Shown here one piece after another: positions 1,070 through 36,571 of a stretch of DNA of 64,000 nucleotides (positions within the stretch are counted from its first letter, which is position 1; each line of letters begins with the position of its first letter). Source of the stretch: an uncultured Caulobacterales bacterium (lineage in GTDB: Bacteria > Pseudomonadota > Alphaproteobacteria > Caulobacterales > Caulobacteraceae); assembly GCA_903884425.1 (NCBI GenBank), contig CAISEP010000017.1, positions 1 through 64,000 of the forward strand. The letters are read 5' to 3'. A model generated the notes under the pieces. The model ran no database searches. It was not told the origin of the DNA and saw nothing but the letters and a program-made list of their open reading frames with translations. A program made the translations under genes and the position numbers.

Positions 1070-1498
1070 TCAACCGGCGGCGATATACGCCTTGAGGTTC
1101 TGGGCCTCCGCCTCGGTCTCGGCGATCTTGGCCTTGACCAGGTCGCCGATGGACACGATGCCCACCAGCCGGCCGTCCACGCAGACGGGCAGGTGGCGGA
1201 TCCGCCGGTCGGTCATCCGCTCCAGCAGGACATCCAGGGATTCCTTCGGCTCCGCGAAGATCACGTCGCGGCTCATGATCTCCGAGATCGGCCGGGCCAG
1301 GGCCGCACCGCCCCGTTCGGACACGGCGCGCACCACGTCCCGTTCGGACAGGATTCCCACGACCTTGTCATTCTCGGTCACCACCATGGCCCCGACGCGC
1401 CGGGCGTGGAGCATGGTTGCCGCCCCCTGCAGGGTTTCGTGCGGCGATGCCGTGAACACCGCCTCCCCCTTGGACTTGAGCAATTGAGATACCAGCAT
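1070..1498 (-). CDS. CBS-domain protein (two CBS repeats)
   Basis: This 142-aa soluble protein is built almost entirely of a CBS pair (about residues 8-62 and 72-128). The typical pattern GVGAMVV/VGILSERDVVRAV is followed by RHLPV and VGIVSIGDLVK. CBS pairs usually bind adenosine nucleotides (AMP, ATP, SAM or c-di-AMP) and act as energy sensors. Stand-alone CBS proteins of this length are common in alphaproteobacteria and their partners are usually unknown. The start is supported by a GGGAGG ribosome site five bases upstream of the ATG. It stands alone between the rrn promoters and the rhomboid gene, so context adds no specific function. Confidence 0.88.
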   Translation of the reverse strand: MLVSQLLKSKGEAVFTASPHETLQGAATMLHARRVGAMVVTENDKVVGILSERDVVRAVSERGGAALARPISEIMSRDVIFAEPKESLDVLLERMTDRRIRHLPVCVDGRLVGIVSIGDLVKAKIAETEAEAQNLKAYIAAG

Positions 1499-1617
1499 GT
1501 TGACCTCCCTTCCCTGGCGGCTCTGAGGCGGCTGCCATGGGACAGGGAAAGCGTCCTCCCAAAGAGGCGTTTCGGCAACACATTCTGTCGTGAGCGCGGA
1601 CGGACGGTCCCGGGATG

Positions 1618-2307
1618 TCAGACGGAGATGTCCGATCGGGGCAGCAGCCCGAACACCCGCGTCACCGGGCCGATCAGCAGCAGCCCCGCCACATAGCCCG
1701 CAATATGCGCCTGCCAGGCAATCGGCGCCCCGCCGCTGAACACGGTGACCCCGAACAGGCCGATCAGCAGGTTGGAGGTGAACCAGGCCGCGGTCATGCT
1801 CACCACCGCCGGGCCGAAGAAGGGGGCGAGGCGATCCGGATCCCGACGCCCCATCAGTCGCGCGGCCGCTCCGGCCAGGCCCGAGACCGCGCCGGAGGCC
1901 CCGACCAGCACGTCATCCACCCGGTGCGGCAGGGCGGCAAAGCCGAGATTGGCGAGCCCCCCGCTCACCAGATAGAACAGGAAGAAGCCTGCCGCCCCCC
2001 TTGGACCCAGGCCGAACAGCCGGGCCACCGGTGCCCCGAAGGCCAGGGCAAATCCCGCATTGACCAGGGCGTGGGCCCAGCTGCCATGCAGGAACAATGA
2101 GGTGACAAGCCCTGCATACCGACCCTCCGCCAGGTCCCGGGGGGCGAACCAGTAGGGTTGCAGGGCATCCGGCGCGGTCAGGATCGTGCTCTGCAGGGCG
2201 TAGCTGAGGACGATCAGGGCGGCGAGCAGGAGACTGGGCCACGGCGCATGAAACAGGGGTTCGGACCGTCGCCCCTCCCCGCCCGCCATCTGCTGGTCCT
2301 GACTCAT
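1618..2307 (-). CDS. rhomboid family intramembrane serine protease
   Basis: This is a 229-aa polytopic membrane protein. The rhomboid hallmarks are visible: an H(74)...H(79)...N(83) cluster in the second membrane helix, the catalytic serine in GASG (Ser138) and the catalytic histidine in a late helix (His201 in HIAGY). These form the Ser-His dyad that cleaves transmembrane helices within the inner membrane. The ATG at 2307 is preferred over an in-frame start at 2376 because GAGG lies just upstream and the added residues would be low-complexity. Substrates cannot be inferred. A TTAC-N7-TTAA motif lies about 85 bp upstream of the start. Confidence 0.88.
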   Translation of the reverse strand: MSQDQQMAGGEGRRSEPLFHAPWPSLLLAALIVLSYALQSTILTAPDALQPYWFAPRDLAEGRYAGLVTSLFLHGSWAHALVNAGFALAFGAPVARLFGLGPRGAAGFFLFYLVSGGLANLGFAALPHRVDDVLVGASGAVSGLAGAAARLMGRRDPDRLAPFFGPAVVSMTAAWFTSNLLIGLFGVTVFSGGAPIAWQAHIAGYVAGLLLIGPVTRVFGLLPRSDISV

Positions 2308-27587: not shown

Positions 27588-28787
27588 ATGCACTGCGACA
27601 CAGTCTGGACGGAGGCGAGGCTTCTGACGATGGCCGGCGGCGATGTCGGCGTCGTCGAGGACGGGGTCGTGGCCGCGACGGATGGTCGCATCACCTATGT
27701 CGGCCCGCGGGACGGGGCGCCGGGCTTCCAGGCGCGGGAGACCGTGGCCTGTGGCGGCCGCTGGATCACCCCCGGACTGATCGACTGCCACACCCATCTG
27801 ATCCATGGCGGCGACCGGGCGCACGAGTTCGAGCTGCGCCTGGCCGGGGCCTCCTACGAGGAGATCGCCCGGGCCGGCGGCGGCATTGTCTCCACCGTCA
27901 AGGCCACCCGGGCGGCGAGCGAGGCGCAGCTGGTGGCCTCCGCCCTGCCCCGGCTGGACGCGCTGATGGCCGAGGGCGTGACCACGGTGGAGATCAAGTC
28001 CGGCTACGGCCTGTCCCTGGAGGCCGAGGGGCGGATGCTGCGCGCCGCCGGGCAGCTGGGACGGATCCGCCCCGTGCGGGTCGCCCGGACCTTTCTGGGG
28101 GCCCATGCCCTGCCGCCGGAACATGCCGGTGACGCCGACGGCTACATCACCCGCGTGGTCGAGGAGATGATCCCGACCCTGGCCGCTGAGGGCCTGATGG
28201 ACGCCGTGGACGCCTTCTGCGAAGGCATCGGCTTCACCCCGTCCCAGGTCCGCCGGGTGTTCGAGGCGGCCACTGCTGTGGGCCTGCCCGTGAAACTGCA
28301 CGCCGAACAGCTGTCGAACCTCCACGGCGCGGAGCTGGCGGCGGGCTTCAAGGCCCTGTCTGCCGATCATCTGGAGCATCTGGACGCCGCCGGGATCGCT
28401 GCCATGGCAAGGGCCGGGACCGTGGCGACCCTGCTGCCCGGGGCCTATTACTTCGTGCGCGAGACGGTGCTGCCGCCGGTCGAGGGCCTCAGGGCCGCGG
28501 GCGTGCCCATGGCCATCGCCACGGACTGCAATCCCGGCACCTCGCCCCTCACCTCGATCCTGCTGACCCTGAACATGGCGGCCACCCTGTTCCGCATGAC
28601 GGTGTCGGAGTGCCTGCTGGGCGTGACCGCCCATGCGGCGCAGGCGCTGGGGCTCGGCCACGAGACCGGCACGCTGGAAGTCGGCAAGAGCTGCGACCTG
28701 GCCATCTGGGACGTCGAGCGTCCCGCCGAACTTGTCTACCGCATGGGTTTCAACCCGCTGTACCGCCGCGTCTGGAGGGGAAAGTGA
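27588..28787 (+). CDS. hutI: imidazolonepropionase HutI
   Basis: A 399-aa metal-dependent amidohydrolase that opens the imidazolone ring to give N-formimidoyl-L-glutamate. Motifs: [11 protein letters not shown] (His68, His70), [12 protein letters not shown], the later metal/catalytic histidines in KLHAEQLSN and DHLEHL, and [10 protein letters not shown]. The ATG at 27588 is preferred because GGAGG lies six bases upstream; an ATG 27 bases earlier lacks one. It is the first gene of the plus-strand hut operon and overlaps hutH by 4 nt (GTGA). Confidence 0.95.
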
Positions 28788-30313
28788 CGATCATCACACT
28801 GCAACCGGGTTCCGTGCCCCTCTGCGACTGGCGGGCCATCTATTTCGGCGCGTCGGCGAAGCTCCACCCCTCCGCCCGGCCGGTGATCGCTGCCAGCGCG
28901 GCCGCGGTCTCGCGCATTCTGGCCACCGGCGCGCCGGTCTATGGAATCAATACCGGCTTCGGCAAGCTCGCCAATGTGCGGATCGGGGACGCGGACCTCG
29001 CTCGGCTGCAGCGCAACATCGTGCTGAGCCATGCGGCGGGAACCGGGGCCCCCTCCCCCCGCAATGTCATCCGGCTGATGATGGCCCTGAAGCTGGCCAG
29101 CCTCGCCCAGGGCGCGTCCGGCGTGCGGACGGAGACCACCGACCTGCTGGAGGCCATGCTGGAGCGCCAGCTGATCCCCGTGGTCCCCTGTCAGGGCTCC
29201 GTCGGGGCCAGCGGCGACCTGGCCCCCCTGTCGCACATGACCGCCACCCTGATCGGCGAGGGCGAGATCTTCGTCGGGGACGAGCGGCACCCGGCGACGG
29301 AGGCCCTGCACGCCGCCGGGCTGAAGCCGGTGGAGCTGGGCCCCAAGGAGGGGCTGGCCCTCTTGAACGGCACCCAGTTCTCCACCGCCAATGCCCTGGC
29401 CGGGCTGTTCGAGGCGGAGCGGCTTTACCAGGCGGCCCTGGTCACCGGGGCGCTCGCCACCGAGGCGGCCAAGGGCTCCGACACCCCCTTCGATCCGCGC
29501 ATCCACACCCTGCGCCGTCATGTGGGACAGATCGAGACCGCCGATGCCCTGCGCCGCCTGATGGCCGGCTCCCCCATCCGCGCCAGCCATCTGGTGGACG
29601 ATGTCCGGGTTCAGGATCCCTACTGCCTGCGCTGCCAGCCCCAGGTGATGGGTGCGGCCCTGGACATATTGCGCCAGGCCGCCACGACCCTGGAGACCGA
29701 GGCCAACGGCGTCACCGACAACCCGCTGATCTTCCCGGAGACCGACGAAGCCCTGTCCGGGGGCAACTTCCACGCCGAGCCCGTGGCCTTTGCCGCAGAC
29801 ATCATCGCGCTGGCCGTCTGCGAGATCGGGTCCCTGGCGGAACGGCGCATCGCCATGCTGGTGGACCCGGCCCTGTCCGGCCTTCCGGCCTTCCTGACCC
29901 CGACGCCGGGCCTCAATTCCGGCTTCATGATCCCCCAGGTCACCGCCGCGGCCCTGGTGTCGGAGAACAAGCAGCGGGCCTATCCCGCCAGCGTCGATTC
30001 CATCCCCACCTCCGCCAATCAGGAGGATCACGTCTCCATGGCTGCCCACGGGGCCCGGCGGCTGATGGACATGGTCGCCAATGCCACCGCCGTGATCGGG
30101 ATCGAGCTGCTGGCCGCGGCCCAGGGGGTGGATTTCCACGCGCCCCTGACCTCCAGCCCCGCCCTGGACCGGGTCCGACGCCGCCTGCGGGACGTGGTGC
30201 CGCCCCTGGGCGACGACCGCTACATCCATCCGGACCTGGAGGCGGCCAATGTCCTGGTGCGCTCCGGCGCGCTGACGGCCGCCGCGGGCCTCGTGCTACC
30301 GGGGGTGTCATGA
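28784..30313 (+). CDS. hutH: histidine ammonia-lyase HutH
   Basis: A 509-aa enzyme that deaminates L-histidine to urocanate. The self-made MIO cofactor comes from Ala142-Ser143-Gly144 in [12 protein letters not shown], and Ser143 coincides in number with the Pseudomonas putida enzyme. [10 protein letters not shown] and [10 protein letters not shown] are further family hallmarks, together with QEDHVSM. The start is GTG at 28784, overlapping the hutI stop, with GGAGGGG upstream. Its stop overlaps the hutG start (ATGA). Confidence 0.96.
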
Positions 30314-31119
30314 CCGACTGGCTGGACATCCACCGGGGCGAGGGCCCCGTCATCATCGCCATGCCGCACACCGGGTCCGAGATCCCGGCGGAGCTGGCGG
30401 GTGCCTTCGTCTCCCCCTGGCTGGCGCGCAAGGACACCGACTGGTGGATCGAGCAGGTCTACGGCTTTGCCCGGGACCTGGGGGTGACGATGGTGCGGAC
30501 CCGCATCTCCCGCTCGGTCATCGACTGCAACCGCGACCCGTCGGGGGCGTCCCTCTATCCCGGCATGGCGACGACGGAGCTGTGTCCCACCTCCACCTTC
30601 GAGGGCGAGCCCCTCTATCGCGGCGCGGCACCGGATGCGGCGGAGATCGCCCGCCGCACCGACCGGTGGTTCGCGCCCTATCACGCCGCCGTCGCCGCCG
30701 AGATCGACCGCCTGAAGGCGAAGCACGGCCGGGTGGTGCTGTACGACGCCCACTCCATCCGCAGCCGGGTCGGCCGCCTGTTCGAGGGGGAGCTGCCCCA
30801 GTTCAACATCGGCAGCAATTCCGGCCGGGCCTGCGATCCGGCGCTGGCCGCCCGGATCAGCGACATCTGTGCCGCCAGCGGCCGCACCCACGTGCTGGAC
30901 GGCCGCTTCAAGGGCGGCTGGACCACCCGGCACTACGGCCGTCCGGACGCGAACGTCCACGCCATCCAGATGGAACTGGCCTTCCGCGGCTACCTCGAGG
31001 AGCCGGACCCCATGACGCCGGAGACCTGGCCCGGCCCCTACGACCCTGCCTATGCCGCGCCCCTCGTGGCGACCCTGACCGACATCGTGAAGGCGTGCAT
31101 CGCCTTTGCCCGCACCTGA
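30310..31119 (+). CDS. hutG: N-formylglutamate deformylase HutG
   Basis: A 269-aa N-formylglutamate amidohydrolase (FGase family) that releases formate and L-glutamate, the final step of this hut branch. Family signatures: [44 protein letters not shown] and [14 protein letters not shown]. These supply the zinc ligands and catalytic residues. The ATG overlaps the hutH stop by 4 nt. There is an 11-bp gap to the hutU start, consistent with one transcript. Confidence 0.94.
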
Positions 31120-31129
31120 AGGAGCCCCC

Positions 31130-32797
31130 ATGAGCCGCATCGACAACAGCCGCATCATCAAGGCCGCCACCGGCACGGAGTTGTCCGCCAGGAGCTGGCT
31201 GACCGAAGCGCCCCTGCGCATGCTGATGAACAACCTGCACCCGGACGTGGCCGAGCGGCCGGAGGAGCTGGTGGTCTATGGCGGCATCGGCCGCGCCGCC
31301 CGGGACTGGCAGAGCTTCGACGCCATCGTCGCCACCCTCCAGCGCCTGGGACCGGACGAGACCCTGCTGGTGCAGTCGGGCAAGCCGGTGGGCGTGTTCA
31401 AGACCCACCCGGACGCCCCGCGGGTGCTGATCGCCAACTCCAACCTGGTGCCCAAATGGGCGAACTGGGAGCACTTCAACGAGCTCGACCGCAAGGGGCT
31501 GGCCATGTACGGCCAGATGACCGCGGGCTCCTGGATCTATATCGGCACCCAGGGGATCGTGCAGGGCACCTACGAGACCTTCGTGGAGATGGGCCGCCAG
31601 CACTACAATGGCGACCTGAGCGGTCGGTGGCTGCTGACCGGGGGGCTCGGCGGCATGGGCGGGGCCCAGCCCCTGGCGGCGGTGATGGCCGGGGCCTCGT
31701 GCCTGGCCATCGAGTGCCAGCCCAGCCGCATCGACATGCGCCTGCGCACCGGCTACCTGGACAAGTCCGCCACCACCCTGGACGAGGCCCTGGCCATGAT
31801 CGCGCAGGCAAAGGCGGACGGAAAGCCCGTGTCCGTCGGCCTGCTGGGCAATGCCGCGGAGATTCTGCCGGAGATGGTGCGCCGGGGCATCCGTCCCGAC
31901 CTGCTCACCGACCAGACCTCCGCCCATGACCCGGTGAACGGCTATCTGCCCATCGGCTGGACCGTGGCCGAATGGATCGAGCGGCGGGAGCGGGAGCCGG
32001 AGGCCGTGGCCAAGGCAGCCAAGGCCTCCATGGCCATCCACGTCCAGGCCATGCTGGACATGCAGGCGGCGGGCGTGCCCACCACCGACTATGGCAACAA
32101 CATCCGCCAGGTGGCCTTCGACGAGGGCGTCACCAAGGCCTTCGCCTTCCCCGGATTCGTGCCCGCCTACATCCGCCCCCTGTTCTGCCGCGGGATCGGC
32201 CCCTTCCGCTGGGTGGCCCTGTCCGGCGATCCGGAGGACATCTACAAGACCGACGCCAAGGTGAAGGAGCTGCTGCCGGACAATGCGGCCCTGCACCGCT
32301 GGCTGGACATGGCCCGGGAGCGCATCCACTTCCAGGGCCTGCCCGCCCGCATCTGCTGGGTGGGCCTGGGGGATCGCCACCGGCTGGGCCTGGCCTTCAA
32401 CGAGATGGTGGCCTCGGGCGAGCTGAAGGCCCCGATCGTCATCGGCCGGGACCACCTCGACTCCGGCTCCGTCGCCAGCCCCAACCGGGAGACCGAGGCC
32501 ATGCAGGACGGCTCCGACGCCGTGTCAGACTGGCCGCTGCTGAACGCCCTGCTCAACACGGCCTCCGGGGCCACCTGGGTGTCCCTGCACCACGGGGGCG
32601 GGGTCGGCATGGGCTATTCCCAACATTCCGGCATGGTCATCGTCGCCGACGGCACTCCGGAAGCAGCCAAGCGGCTGGAGCGGGTCCTGTGGAACGACCC
32701 GGCCACCGGCGTCATGCGGCATGCGGATGCGGGCTATGACATCGCCCTCGACTGCGCCCGGGAGAAGGGTCTCGACCTGCCGGGCATCCTGAAGTGA
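31130..32797 (+). CDS. hutU: urocanate hydratase HutU
   Basis: A 555-aa NAD-dependent urocanase converting urocanate to imidazolone propionate. The coverage is full length. Highly conserved stretches include [16 protein letters not shown], the NAD-binding region [32 protein letters not shown], and [18 protein letters not shown] near the C-terminus. The ATG at 31130 follows AAGGAG by seven bases. Order in the operon (I-H-G-U-D) is unlike that of enteric bacteria, but all steps are represented. The hutU stop overlaps the GTG of hutD. Confidence 0.96.
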
Positions 32798-33375
32798 CGC
32801 TGAACGTCCTGCGCGCCGCCGACCGGGCGGTCCAGCCCTGGAAGAACGGCGGCGGCAAGACGCGGGAGGTGCTGGCCGCCCCCGCCTCCGGCAGCGCCGG
32901 GGACTTCGACTGGCGGGTCAGCATGGCCGAGGTCGCGGTCCCTGGCCCGTTCTCGTCCTTTCCCGGTATCGACCGCACGCTGAAGGTTCTGGAAGGCCGC
33001 CTGGAACTGGGCTTCGCCGATCCGGAGGCGGTGCATGTCCTGACGCCGGAGGCGGAGGCGCTGGACTTTCCGGGGGACGTGGCCGTCACCGGCCGCCCGG
33101 TGGACGGACCGGTCCTCGACCTCAACCTGATGGTGCGGCGCGAGGCCTTCGTCGGCCATATCCGGTCCCTGCCCGCGGGGGCGCTGCCCGCACCGGAGGG
33201 CTCGCCGGTGCTGCGGCTGCTGATCGCCCTGCAGCCCACCACCGTGCGGGTCGCCGACGCCGTCCACGGGCTGGCGCGCTTCGACGCCCTGCGTCTGGAC
33301 GGACCGGACGCTGCGGACGGCCTGACCCTCGACCAACCCGCCCTGCTGCTGCTGGTCCTGCCCCGGACCGCCTGA
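32794..33375 (+). CDS. hutD: HutD family cupin-like protein
   Basis: A 193-aa protein of the HutD/Ves family, a bicupin-like fold. Typical N-terminal signature [14 protein letters not shown] and [11 protein letters not shown], with [14 protein letters not shown] following. HutD in pseudomonads is proposed to limit accumulation of hut intermediates; its biochemical activity is not settled. The GTG start at 32794 overlaps the hutU stop. It ends the hut operon. The 93 bp to the convergent LOV regulator contain no clear terminator. Confidence 0.9.
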
Positions 33376-33468
33376 GCGGGACCGCTGTTCGGCAGGCGCA
33401 CGAAGTAGAAGCTGCCGCCGTTGAGTCCCCGCTGATTCCCACCCCCGGGGTGCGGACGCAGCCCCGGA

Positions 33469-34119
33469 TCAGAAACCTGCCTCCACCGCCAGCCGGATGG
33501 CATCGGCCCCGGAGCGGACGTCCAGGGCCTTGAGCAGTGCCGCCCGGTGCATCTTCACCGTCCGCTCGGTCAGACCCAGCTCATGGGCGATCTGCTTGTT
33601 CAGCTTGCCGCTGGACATGCCCAGCAGCACTTCCCGCTGGCGCGGGCTGAGCCCGTCGACCCGGCCCCGGGCCACCGACGCCCGCGACGGCGCACCCTCC
33701 CCCTCCGGCGCGAGGGCCTGGGAGCCGAGGAAGAAGTCCAGCTCGCCCTCGGCGTCGAAGATCGGGGCGACCAGGACCGCGTTGCGGAACGGGGTGCCGT
33801 CCTTGCGGTAGTTGCGGATCTCCACCAGCACCGGGGTCCTCGCGCGGACCCCCTGGCGGATCTGCTCGGACAGTTCGGGCTCGGTGCTGGGCCCGGCCAG
33901 GAAGCGGCAGTTGCGGCCCACCACCTCGTCCCGGTCGTAGCCGGTGAGCGCCAGGAACGCGGCATTGCAGTGGACGATGGGATTGTCCGGCTGGCGCGGG
34001 TCGCTGAGCACCGCCGCGATCGGACTGGCATCGATCATCTTCGCCAGTGCGGGATTTGCCCGCAGTGCCCTGGCGACCGGAGCGGCTTCCCTTTTGGACA
34101 TGTTGGCGAGGATGCGCAT
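33469..34119 (-). CDS. LOV-HTH blue-light-type transcriptional regulator
   Basis: A 216-aa protein: a LOV/PAS domain (residues 25-140) followed by a LuxR-type helix-turn-helix (about 155-212: DGLSPRQREVLLGMSSGKLN and TERTVKMHRAALL). The flavin-adduct cysteine is Cys71 in GRNCRFLAG. Flavin-ring contacts are also present: Asn103 (RNYRKDGT), Asn113 (PFRNAV) and Gln134 (FFLGSQ). The Gln that usually follows FL in the GxNCRFLQ motif is Ala. The architecture equals EL222, a photoreceptor that dimerises and binds DNA in blue light. The start is uncertain: ATG at 34119 is used, with a TTG at 34137 and an ATG at 34101 as alternatives. It is divergent from folE. Confidence 0.88.
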   Translation of the reverse strand: MRILANMSKREAAPVARALRANPALAKMIDASPIAAVLSDPRQPDNPIVHCNAAFLALTGYDRDEVVGRNCRFLAGPSTEPELSEQIRQGVRARTPVLVEIRNYRKDGTPFRNAVLVAPIFDAEGELDFFLGSQALAPEGEGAPSRASVARGRVDGLSPRQREVLLGMSSGKLNKQIAHELGLTERTVKMHRAALLKALDVRSGADAIRLAVEAGF

Positions 34120-34175
34120 CGGGCCCAGCTTTGACAAGGGCCAGCAGAACCCGGCGACGACCAGGAAAGACGGAC

Positions 34176-34787
34176 ATGAACTACTTCTCCCCCGATGCGC
34201 GCCTTTCGGGCCCCGACGGCAAGGTCATGGTGCCGGAGGACGTGCAGGACGCCGTGCGGACCCTGCTGCGCTGGGCCGGTGAGGATCCCTCCCGCGAAGG
34301 CCTGCGCGACACGCCGGGCCGGGTGGCCCGGGCCTGGCTGGAATATTGCGACGGCTACGAGGAGGATCCCGGCCTCCACCTGGCGCGGACCTTCGAGGAG
34401 GTGGGAGGCTATGACGAGATCGTGCTCCTGCGCGACATCCCCTTCCAGTCCCATTGCGAGCATCACCTGGCCCCGATCACGGGGGTAGCCTCCATCGCCT
34501 ATCTGCCAAAGGACCGGGTGGTGGGCATCTCCAAGCTGGCGCGGGTGCTGCAGGGCTATGCCCACCGGCTGCAGGTGCAGGAGCGCCTGACGGCGGAGGT
34601 GGCCGACTGCATCTGGGAACACCTCCAGCCCCGGGGCGTCGCCGTGGTGATCGAGGCCCAGCACGGCTGCATGACCGGCCGCGGGGTCCGCACCCCGGGT
34701 GTGAACATGCTGACCCGCCGGGTGCTGGGCTGCTTTGCCGAGGACGCGGACCAGCGCAAGGACGTGTTCGCGCTGATGGGCCGCTGA
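34176..34787 (+). CDS. folE: GTP cyclohydrolase I FolE
   Basis: A 203-aa enzyme converting GTP to dihydroneopterin triphosphate, the first step to folates and pterins. Zinc ligands are present: Cys94 and His97 in HCEHHLAPITG and Cys165 in QHGCMTGRG. The GGYDEIVLLRDIPFQSHCEH region is canonical. The ATG at 34176 follows AGGAAAG. Divergence from a LOV regulator and coupling to a COG3380 flavoprotein suggest a light-induced copy supplying pterin, for example the antenna of photolyase, rather than the only housekeeping folE. Whether another folE exists elsewhere cannot be seen. Confidence 0.95.
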   Translation: MNYFSPDARLSGPDGKVMVPEDVQDAVRTLLRWAGEDPSREGLRDTPGRVARAWLEYCDGYEEDPGLHLARTFEEVGGYDEIVLLRDIPFQSHCEHHLAPITGVASIAYLPKDRVVGISKLARVLQGYAHRLQVQERLTAEVADCIWEHLQPRGVAVVIEAQHGCMTGRGVRTPGVNMLTRRVLGCFAEDADQRKDVFALMGR

Positions 34788-34791
34788 GGCC

Positions 34792-35799
34792 ATGCGCATC
34801 GCCGTGATCGGGGCCGGAATGGCCGGCCTGTCCTGCGCCACGGCGCTGTCGAGGGCGGACAGGACCGGGGCGGACCTGGAAATCCGGGTCTTCGACAAGG
34901 GCCGCGGCCCCGGCGGCCGGATGGCGACCCGGCGGATCGCTACGCCCCTGGGCGAGGCCTGTTTCGACATGGGGGCCCAGTACTTCACCGTGCGCAGCCC
35001 GGACTTTGCAGAGGAGGTGAGCCGCTGGGTGAGCGCCGGACAGGTGGCCCCCTGGCCGGCGGCGGGACCGGAGGCGTGGGTCGGGACCCCCTCCATGACC
35101 GCCCCGCTGAAGGACATGGCGGCGCCGCTGGACATTGCCTGGAACAGCTTCGTGGCCGGGCTCAGCCGGGACGCCGAGGGCTGGCGGCTGCACCTGAAGG
35201 ACGGGGACGTGCCCGGGTTCGACGCGGTGGTCATCGCCCTGCCCGCGGAGCAGGCCACGCCCTTCCTGGCCCTGACCGACCCTGCCTTCTTCCAGCGCAA
35301 TGTCCTGTCCCAGACCTCGCCCTGCTGGACGGGCCTCTATGCCTTCGCCGCGCCCCTGTCGGTGTCGGCGGACGTGTTCCGCAAGCAGGGGATCATCAGC
35401 TGGGCTGCGCGAAACAGTGCCAAGCCCGGTCGCGCGCCCCTCGAGACCTGGGTGGTGCAGGCCGATCACGACTGGTCCCGCGCCCATCTGGAGGAGCCCC
35501 CCGAATCGGTGGCCGCCGCCCTGCTTTCGTCCCTGCTCGCCCTGACCGGCGACCCGGGGCGCGAGGCCCTCGTCCAGTCGGCCCATCGCTGGCGGTTTGC
35601 CCTGTCCACGCCCCTGGGTCTCGACGGCCTGTGGAACCCGGAGATCGGGCTCGGGGTCTGCGGCGACTGGCTCCTTGCCCCCCGGGTGGAGAGTGCCTGG
35701 TTGTCCGGGGCGGCCCTGGCCCGTCGCATGGGTGCCCAGCCGTTCACCCGCCCGGCCCGCGGCGGGGAGGCCCTTTCCCCTGCCCTGACCAGCCGCTAA
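34792..35799 (+). CDS. NAD(P)/FAD-dependent oxidoreductase, COG3380 (renalase-like)
   Basis: A 335-aa flavoprotein. The N-terminal FAD motif is VIGAGMAGLSCATAL. It is followed by the COG3380 signature FDKGRGPGGRMATRR and FDMGAQYFTVR, and a C-terminal FAD contact VCGDWLLAPRVESAWLSG. The family resembles renalase and amine oxidases, but its substrate in bacteria is unknown. It is often encoded beside photolyase and folE in light- or oxidative-stress clusters. It begins 4 bp after the folE stop, with GAGG as ribosome site, so the pair is co-transcribed. Confidence 0.86.
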   Translation: MRIAVIGAGMAGLSCATALSRADRTGADLEIRVFDKGRGPGGRMATRRIATPLGEACFDMGAQYFTVRSPDFAEEVSRWVSAGQVAPWPAAGPEAWVGTPSMTAPLKDMAAPLDIAWNSFVAGLSRDAEGWRLHLKDGDVPGFDAVVIALPAEQATPFLALTDPAFFQRNVLSQTSPCWTGLYAFAAPLSVSADVFRKQGIISWAARNSAKPGRAPLETWVVQADHDWSRAHLEEPPESVAAALLSSLLALTGDPGREALVQSAHRWRFALSTPLGLDGLWNPEIGLGVCGDWLLAPRVESAWLSGAALARRMGAQPFTRPARGGEALSPALTSR

Positions 35800-35839
35800 G
35801 AGGCAGACGCCCCCCATCGCCCCGCAGCGGAGCGCGCCC

Positions 35840-36571
35840 ATGTCGTCTGCCGAAACCGAGACCGATGCGGTCCTCGCGGCCCTGGCCACCCGCCTCGTGG
35901 GCAAGGCCCGGGACACGCGGCCCCTGCTGGTGGGCCTGACCGGCTCCGTGGCCGCGGGCAAGAGCACCCTGTGCACCCAGCTCGTCCCCCGTCTGGAGCC
36001 GAACCTGCGCGTGGAGGTGATCTCCACCGACGGCTTCCTTTTGCCCAACGACACGCTGAATGCCCGGGGTCTCGGCCTGCGCAAGGGCTTTCCTGAGTCC
36101 TATGACGCGGACGGACTGTTCGCAGCCCTGGCGGCGCTGCGGGCCGGGCCGACCCGGATTCCCGGCTATTCCCACGTCACCTACGACATCGACCCGGCCC
36201 TGACCCGGACCCTCGAGGGGGCGGACATCGTCATCCTGGAGGGCCTGGGCTTTGCCCCCTTCCCCGATGGCCGGAGCCTGACCGACAGCCTGGACCTGCT
36301 GATCTATCTGGATGCGTCCGAGGCCGACCTGGAAGACTGGTTCGCCGCGCGGTTCATGGGACTGTGGCGGGCGGCGGAGACCGATCCCGCCTCGTTCTAC
36401 GCCCAGTTCCGGCACATGGACGAGGTCCAGGCCGAGCAGTTCGGACGCATGGTCTGGTCGCAGATCAATCTGCCGAACCTGCGGGACCACATCGTTCACG
36501 CCCGGGACCGGGCCGACATCCTCCTGCGCAAGGATGCCGACCACCGGCTGGAACTGGTCCGCGGCCGCTAG
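35840..36571 (+). CDS. P-loop kinase related to type I pantothenate kinase (CoaA-like, short)
   Basis: A 243-aa kinase. The Walker A motif GSVAAGKST covers residues 35-43. The stretch ISTDGFLLPNDTLNARGLGL, then RKGFPESYDADGL, is almost the CoaA signature that binds ATP and pantothenate. Later YSHVTYDI and VILEGL follow the CoaA order. It is about 70 residues shorter than typical CoaA, mainly at the N-terminus. It may be the pantothenate kinase of this organism or a related uridine/nucleoside-type kinase. GGAG eight bases upstream supports the ATG. The gene follows the COG3380 gene by 40 bp in the same direction. Confidence 0.8.
   Translation: MSSAETETDAVLAALATRLVGKARDTRPLLVGLTGSVAAGKSTLCTQLVPRLEPNLRVEVISTDGFLLPNDTLNARGLGLRKGFPESYDADGLFAALAALRAGPTRIPGYSHVTYDIDPALTRTLEGADIVILEGLGFAPFPDGRSLTDSLDLLIYLDASEADLEDWFAARFMGLWRAAETDPASFYAQFRHMDEVQAEQFGRMVWSQINLPNLRDHIVHARDRADILLRKDADHRLELVRGR

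Follow-up and report, generated by a model that had tools for sequence, protein, structure and literature searches.

The window analysed here is a 64,000-nt stretch (contig CAISEP010000017.1, positions 1 to 64,000) of the genome of an uncultured Caulobacteraceae bacterium (G000; 3.58 Mb in 24 contigs), and our subject is a three-gene locus within it. On the minus strand, at 33469-34038, lies a gene for a LOV-HTH regulator of the EL222 family, which combines a LOV domain with a LuxR/GerE-type helix-turn-helix (HTH). Divergent from it, on the plus strand, folE encodes a GTP cyclohydrolase I of a LOV-linked lineage (34176-34787, 203 aa) and is followed after 4 bp by the gene of a renalase-family FAD protein (COG3380; 34792-35799, 335 aa), the coupling described by an earlier sequence-only reading of this DNA. 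The divergent intergenic control region is 137 bp in length (34039-34175) if the regulator starts where we place it, and it contains a predicted LOV-HTH operator, CCCTTTTGGACATGTTGG, at 34089-34106 (plus strand), which we found as a de novo motif in the relatives of this locus. Because relatives share this operator-like element, and because the regulator gene is split from folE-renalase in one sister genome, the LOV-HTH protein likely controls folE and the renalase gene.

Proteins of the locus

Pfam models find both domains of the regulator on one chain (PAS_9, E = 1.2e-18; GerE, E = 5.7e-16, 58.3 bits). The LOV domain occupies 33715-34038 (residues 28-135 in the numbering of an earlier 216-aa frame) and the HTH 33487-33654 (residues 156-211), both on the minus strand, and the best solved structure for the protein is EL222 (E = 1.2e-62). 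The adduct cysteine Cys71 (codon 33907-33909) and the three flavin-contact residues that the sequence-only reading had picked out are conserved: Cys71, Asn103, Asn113 and Gln134 are kept in all 65 aligned proteins, the window protein and EL222 among them. An AlphaFold model of the protein (pLDDT 89.8, pTM 0.56) has EL222 as its top Foldseek matches (8a5r, E = 3e-23; 3p7n, E = 5e-22; rmsd 18.6). Each domain of the model fits EL222, and the placement of the domains differs from the dark-state docking, in which the HTH lies on the LOV sheet. The Ala that follows NCRFL, which had been taken as an unusual replacement of Gln, is no peculiarity. Amongst the 65 rows, the residue after NCRFL/M is R in 32, A in 17, S in 10, K in 3, and H, T and G in one each, with Gln in none, and EL222 itself carries Ala79 at this position. 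The EL222 variant AQTrip, which is more light-sensitive, carries Ala79Gln by design, as given in the accessible part of PMC10300134. The window protein is thus EL222-like at this position and may have a fast dark recovery.

The sequence-only reading had the LOV and GerE domains and the gene end at 33469 right; its start codon, which gave 216 aa (upper end 34119) and a gap of 56 bp to folE, we reject. Position 1 of that frame is Leu, not Met, in the two nearest relatives (L014 and L015). In the comparison of the window with L014, L015 and L016, codons 14-27 have 8 synonymous and 20 non-synonymous substitutions, versus 188 and 71 for codons 28-216, a shift with a Fisher p of 6e-6 when the three comparisons, each of which includes the window sequence, are pooled, and of 0.03, 0.07 and 0.001 singly. 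Many of the 34 relatives with a linked folE, described below, have an ATG near the place of Met28. The LOV-HTH gene likely starts at Met28 (34038) and encodes 189 aa, an assignment that stays at likely because no clear ribosome-binding site is seen before Met28.

The window FolE scores 192.2 bits with TIGR00063 (cut-off 181.6) and 225.8 over 27 with Pfam. The COG3380 protein has no match in PHROGs, and it aligns to the bacterial renalase 4zcc over residues 3-313 of 335 (E = 3e-44). This alignment is its likeness to the bacterial renalases of known structure (PDB 4zcc, 4zcd, 5krq); compared with them, the locus here adds a link to a light sensor that only gene order suggests, and the substrate of the window protein is putative. 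Human renalase is described as an oxidase of dihydro-NAD(P) (PMC6234383, accessible part).

This genome has a second folE copy (L094) on another contig, 57% identical to the LOV-linked one. We find in it no second match to the window renalase and no second LOV-LuxR protein, the remaining matches spanning the LOV part or the HTH part only. In a folE tree (three short fragments dropped), the LOV-linked copies form a clade (100/97) together with the copies of two family genomes, G125 and G081, apart from 14 other Caulobacteraceae copies, amongst which is L094. Because the sphingomonad housekeeping folE genes lie outside the sample, the tree does not prove that a dedicated paralogue exists beyond Caulobacteraceae.

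Synteny and a conserved 18-bp site

A scan of genome contigs gave 303 loci, of which we kept the best 80. Our counts use the 62 loci (L014-L075) that match to the C-terminus, and leave out 18 (L076-L093) that are mainly LOV-only matches. The synteny extends past this genome, through Sphingomonadales and Caulobacterales, so that one refuting condition set by the sequence-only reading, a lack of synteny in other genomes, does not hold: 31 of the 62 loci have folE and renalase, 3 have folE alone with the contig ending there, 5 have renalase only, and 23 have neither, so that folE is present in 34/62 loci and renalase in 36/62. In all 34 folE-bearing loci, folE is divergent from the LOV-HTH gene. 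Some of the 23 unlinked loci have short upstream sequence (about 509 bases in L048 and about 259 in L072). In a sample of 149 genomes of the family, the LOV-HTH protein (E <= 1e-40) occurs in five, namely four of the six members of the window genus and G019, and all five carry both renalase and the LOV-type folE (79-100% identical). Neither of these genes is seen in G020 and G062 (88% complete), the two members of the genus in which the LOV-HTH gene is missing. Amongst the 144 family genomes without the LOV-HTH gene, a folE of the LOV-type lineage (73%) is found in two, G125 and G081. Renalase is not tied to the LOV-HTH gene, because it is commoner (38/149 genomes, E <= 1e-30).

We searched for motifs with a purpose-written expectation-maximization (EM) script in the upstream regions (330 bases, one of 267) of 47 non-redundant loci. 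An 18-bp motif, CCCTTTnGGnCATGTTGc, has an EM score of 312, versus 67-72 in four shuffled sets (250 starts for the real set and 120 for each shuffled set). The motif is present at a posterior of at least 0.99 in 37/47 regions, always on the strand opposite the LOV-HTH gene. The window site at 34089-34106, which starts 87 nt before the folE start, falls within the earlier 216-aa frame; because the reading frame in which the motif falls varies, and because in many relatives it lies beyond the LOV coding sequence, we read it as a DNA element. With 27.2 bits, the window site is the top match of the 64 kb (next best, 14.7). It is still first when its own clade and L074 are held out (19.7 vs 14.6 bits), and it is the only match without mismatches in the genome. 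A site of at least 13 bits is found in 38 of the 39 linked loci, those with folE, renalase or both (L036 is the one missing it), and in 9/23 unlinked loci (Fisher 3.5e-7, with rows that are related and a profile built from sites of the same loci).

The most telling case is G045, a draft genome of the window genus in 280 contigs. Here contig C82 carries the LOV-HTH gene and, upstream of it, the site CCCTTTTGAACATGTCGG (L104); folE-renalase lies on C235, where a separate site, CCCTTTTGGACAGGTTGG, is found 102 bases before folE (L127, L233). Under a profile built without the window clade, these two sites score 16.3 (LOV-HTH) and 15.1 bits (folE). The two contigs could lie near one another, but the genes are not side by side. 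Because the detached folE keeps its own site, the site appears to belong to both folE and the regulator, and this is the best evidence for that assignment. The folE loci of G125 and G081 (L129, L130), which come without a LOV-HTH gene, have no site above 7 bits.

The sequence-only reading had drawn attention to a TTGACA at 34131-34136 without a good -10, and had placed the operator around it, in 34120-34175. The hexamer is there and a sigma-70 promoter scan of 33900-34300 gives no match. As a conserved element we reject it, since only three of six leaders keep it (the window, L014 and L017, and not L015, G019 or G045); the predicted operator is at 34089-34106 instead.

Three observations concern the site in other places. 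A one-mismatch form, CCCATTCGGACAGGTTG, recurs in five genomes. In L017, from a Hyphomicrobiales metagenome-assembled genome, a second strong site, CCCTTTTGGACATATTGA (L017:2019-2036, 22.3 bits), lies 127 bases before an open reading frame (1299-1892, minus strand) that is fasciclin (FAS1)-like by look. A clade of mostly Sphingobium LOV-HTH genes (L050, L053-L056, L063, L064, L066, L068, L070) comes without folE, and most of its members adjoin a nitroreductase-like gene and genes for predicted membrane proteins, all identified by look. Because sites in this clade are weak or lost, its LOV-HTH proteins are suggested to have another target.

The proposed light switch and its rivals

EL222, from Erythrobacter litoralis, has the same domain order as the window protein, 56% identity to it, the same flavin contacts and the same Ala after NCRFL, and the HTH recognition regions are nearly identical (TERTVKMHR in the window, SEKTVKMHR in EL222). 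The optimised operator of EL222, C120 (sequence from the accessible part of PMC10521638), resembles the window motif. It scores 15.8 bits over 14 motif columns, a value reached by 1 in 20,000 shuffles in a second form of the test that allows overhang; we repeated the test in this form because C120 covers only 14 columns. In a tree of LOV-HTH proteins, EL222 groups with L042, L039 and L048 (99/93), and the window protein with L014-L017 and G019 (100/99, six rows); deep branches are weak.

We consider it probable that a one-component blue-light switch acts on folE and the renalase gene via 34089-34106. Judging from its conserved residues, the LOV domain would bind flavin and form a cysteinyl adduct under blue light. 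The lit protein would dimerise as EL222 does and bind 34089-34106, a site predicted by comparison. Once bound, it would switch the folE-renalase operon, most likely on, and it may also act on its own gene, which starts at the other side of the site. Light would then raise the supply of dihydroneopterin triphosphate, with which the routes to pterins and folates begin, together with that of a flavoprotein whose family oxidises faulty NAD(P)H isomers. The FolE product feeds the folate antenna of photolyase, and light induction could serve to supply pterin to that antenna, as the sequence-only reading had supposed. The renewal of light-damaged cofactors is another reading of the purpose, and both stand. 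The result would be a small local photoprotection module, to which some relatives may add photolyase, photolyase-related proteins or carotenoid-type genes.

A number of results weigh against this proposal, and several of them would fit a different regulator that binds the conserved site while the LOV-HTH protein acts elsewhere. Twelve close orthologues of EL222 (L201-L212), from which the window clade is separate, have no comparable upstream site and no adjoining folE; amongst the twelve, L209 has a renalase and L208 one 13.4-bit match far upstream. A later search in another family with EL222 as query found LOV-HTH genes in 46/199 genomes, of which we read 30 loci with flanks of 1.5 kb. There, folE adjoins in four (L221, L223, L226 and L228, the last being L023 again) and renalase in three (L209, L226, L228). 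In L221 and L223, folE follows the LOV-HTH gene in the same direction, and of the newly linked loci L209, L221, L223 and L226 only L226 has the site (14.5 bits); L209, L221 and L223, which lack it, are nearer to EL222. Fourteen of the 23 unlinked LOV-HTH genes also come without the site. C120 does not match when all 18 columns are demanded, the natural EL222 peak B site fits the motif weakly (0.077), and the fit of the published EL222 consensus RGNCYWWRGNCY to the sites does not exceed that of column-permuted controls (0.087, without significant enrichment), so that we reject this consensus as proof. A different regulator at the site nevertheless seems very improbable to us: C120 fits the motif over the columns it covers, the recognition-region residues agree with those of EL222, and in the family sample the folE lineage that comes without the LOV-HTH gene (L129, L130) lacks the site. 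Other adverse results concern reach and direction. The motif shows no excess across 17 genomes (27 matches with up to one mismatch, nine of them known LOV/folE sites, vs 18 for the reversed pattern) nor within this genome (4 vs 8 at up to two mismatches), and we reject the idea that the motif governs a large regulon, here or in the 17 other genomes. As to direction, the empty sigma-70 scan favours neither activation nor repression.

It is quite unlikely that the site serves the LOV-HTH gene alone, as autoregulation or as a conserved leader or promoter element, with folE-renalase as mere neighbours under a separate, light-independent promoter. Such a role would agree with the position of the site, which precedes residue 30 of the LOV frame by 45-71 nt in 35/37 confident cases, and with the nine unlinked loci that keep it; yet the site tracks linkage across the 62 loci, and the G045 folE-renalase keeps one on a contig apart from the LOV-HTH gene. 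We give a small chance to the LOV-HTH protein repressing folE-renalase in light. EL222 is an activator or a repressor depending on site placement (PMC9614035, accessible part), and no promoter could be placed at the window locus, both of which leave room for repression; the partner genes in some relatives (photolyase, a photolyase-related protein and carotenoid-type genes) suggest induction instead, and so does the light-induced folE of Pseudomonas.

In the accessible part of PMC9758184, Pseudomonas folE, phrB and cryB are light-induced under class II LitR with a short LOV protein (P. putida and P. mendocina), and the clusters also hold genes for a short-chain dehydrogenase and a FAD-dependent oxidoreductase. 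There a separate short LOV protein acts via a LitR/CarH-type regulator, whereas the window locus combines the sensor and the DNA-binding domain in a single LOV-LuxR protein. The adjacent regulator of the window has PAS and GerE domains and no MerR or B12 domain; LitR was not searched for elsewhere in the genome. Within the literature that we searched, which covers few subscription journals, we found no report of folE control by an EL222-type LOV-HTH protein (no search was aimed at LOV proteins together with renalase), and the only paper that joins "EL222" and "GTP cyclohydrolase" is PMC9758184, which in its accessible part concerns the other system.

EL222 is widely used in optogenetics, and the literature covered, as far as accessible, does not give the native job of its family; in the table of a 2014 review (PMC4844311, accessible part), the EL222 entry reads no more than "Binding to DNA consensus sequences". 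EL222-type regulators are a known kind. What is new is a directly testable native target for an EL222-like subfamily: we can name a concrete operon, predict its 18-bp operator, and point to a sister genome that has regulator and target apart. For optogenetics, the family is also a source of natural light switches in which a different residue follows NCRFL (Arg in 32/65), and bacterial renalase is placed in a possible light-response setting. A broader proposal is possible, and we lean somewhat against it: a hitherto unrecognised module spanning orders, formed by a subfamily of EL222-like one-component switches with folE-renalase as native target, in which blue light would trigger the renewal of photolabile cofactors (pterins and folates made, faulty NAD(P)H isomers removed), with photolyase and carotenoids added in some lineages, and a target set that overlaps the Pseudomonas LitR/short-LOV regulon under an unrelated regulator.

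Photolyase, carotenoid genes and other neighbours

The sequence-only reading had raised the possibility of photolyase under the same motif. This genome has a single PF03441 photolyase (L013), on another contig, and we reject it as a target since its leader has no site. Sites of at least 15 bits are found in photolyase leaders of 4/19 sphingomonad genomes and of 0/4 Caulobacteraceae whose leader could be used, among them this genome (L145 is incomplete and L169-L173 are outside the scan), with a background rate of at most 0.023 sites per leader. Because strand and distance vary, the signal is weak, and the suggestion can hold at best for those four sphingomonad leaders. The further photolyase-family genes L167 and L168 have no site, and no photolyase was found in G168.

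Photolyase-type genes do occur within some LOV-HTH clusters. Photolyase is in the cluster in L030 and in G294, where the LOV-HTH, photolyase and short-chain dehydrogenase genes are consecutive, opposite folE-renalase. The G019 cluster has a PF04244 (photolyase-related) protein, for which tblastn finds relatives of 50-55% identity in L051, L058, L059, L060 and L067, and the G344 cluster encodes a protein that includes a portion of the photolyase FAD domain. Near renalase genes, a PF04244 relative lies within 1.5 kb in 2 of 15 loci (L109-L123); these are L122 and L123, from family genomes without a LOV-HTH match, where it stands beside renalase (59-62%, tblastn).

A LytB-polyprenyl-synthase gene (Pfam LYTB, polyprenyl_synt) is found in L030, L062, L065 and L073, with a relative in L026, and an Amino_oxidase (Pfam) gene in L062, L065 and L073; we take the two to be of crtE type and crtI-like, respectively. 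These two genes adjoin the LOV-HTH gene and start divergently, and weaker sites are placed at their starts or in between (L062:5935-5952, 14.5 bits; L073:7533-7550, 15.1; L065:3684-3701, 10.1). L062 has another match (L062:5585, 16.3 bits) inside the LytB-polyprenyl-synthase gene. In some relatives, the targets may thus extend to carotenoid genes.

Rfam finds no RNA family at gathering score in 33000-36200. After renalase, at 35840-36571, the window has a pantothenate-kinase/PRK-like gene, also present in L014 and L015; because the other 60 loci yielded no such gene, it is outside the conserved core. On the other side of the locus, 28610-33375 holds a hut-like (histidine use) operon, the hutD gene of which (Pfam HutD) ends head-on to the LOV-HTH gene.

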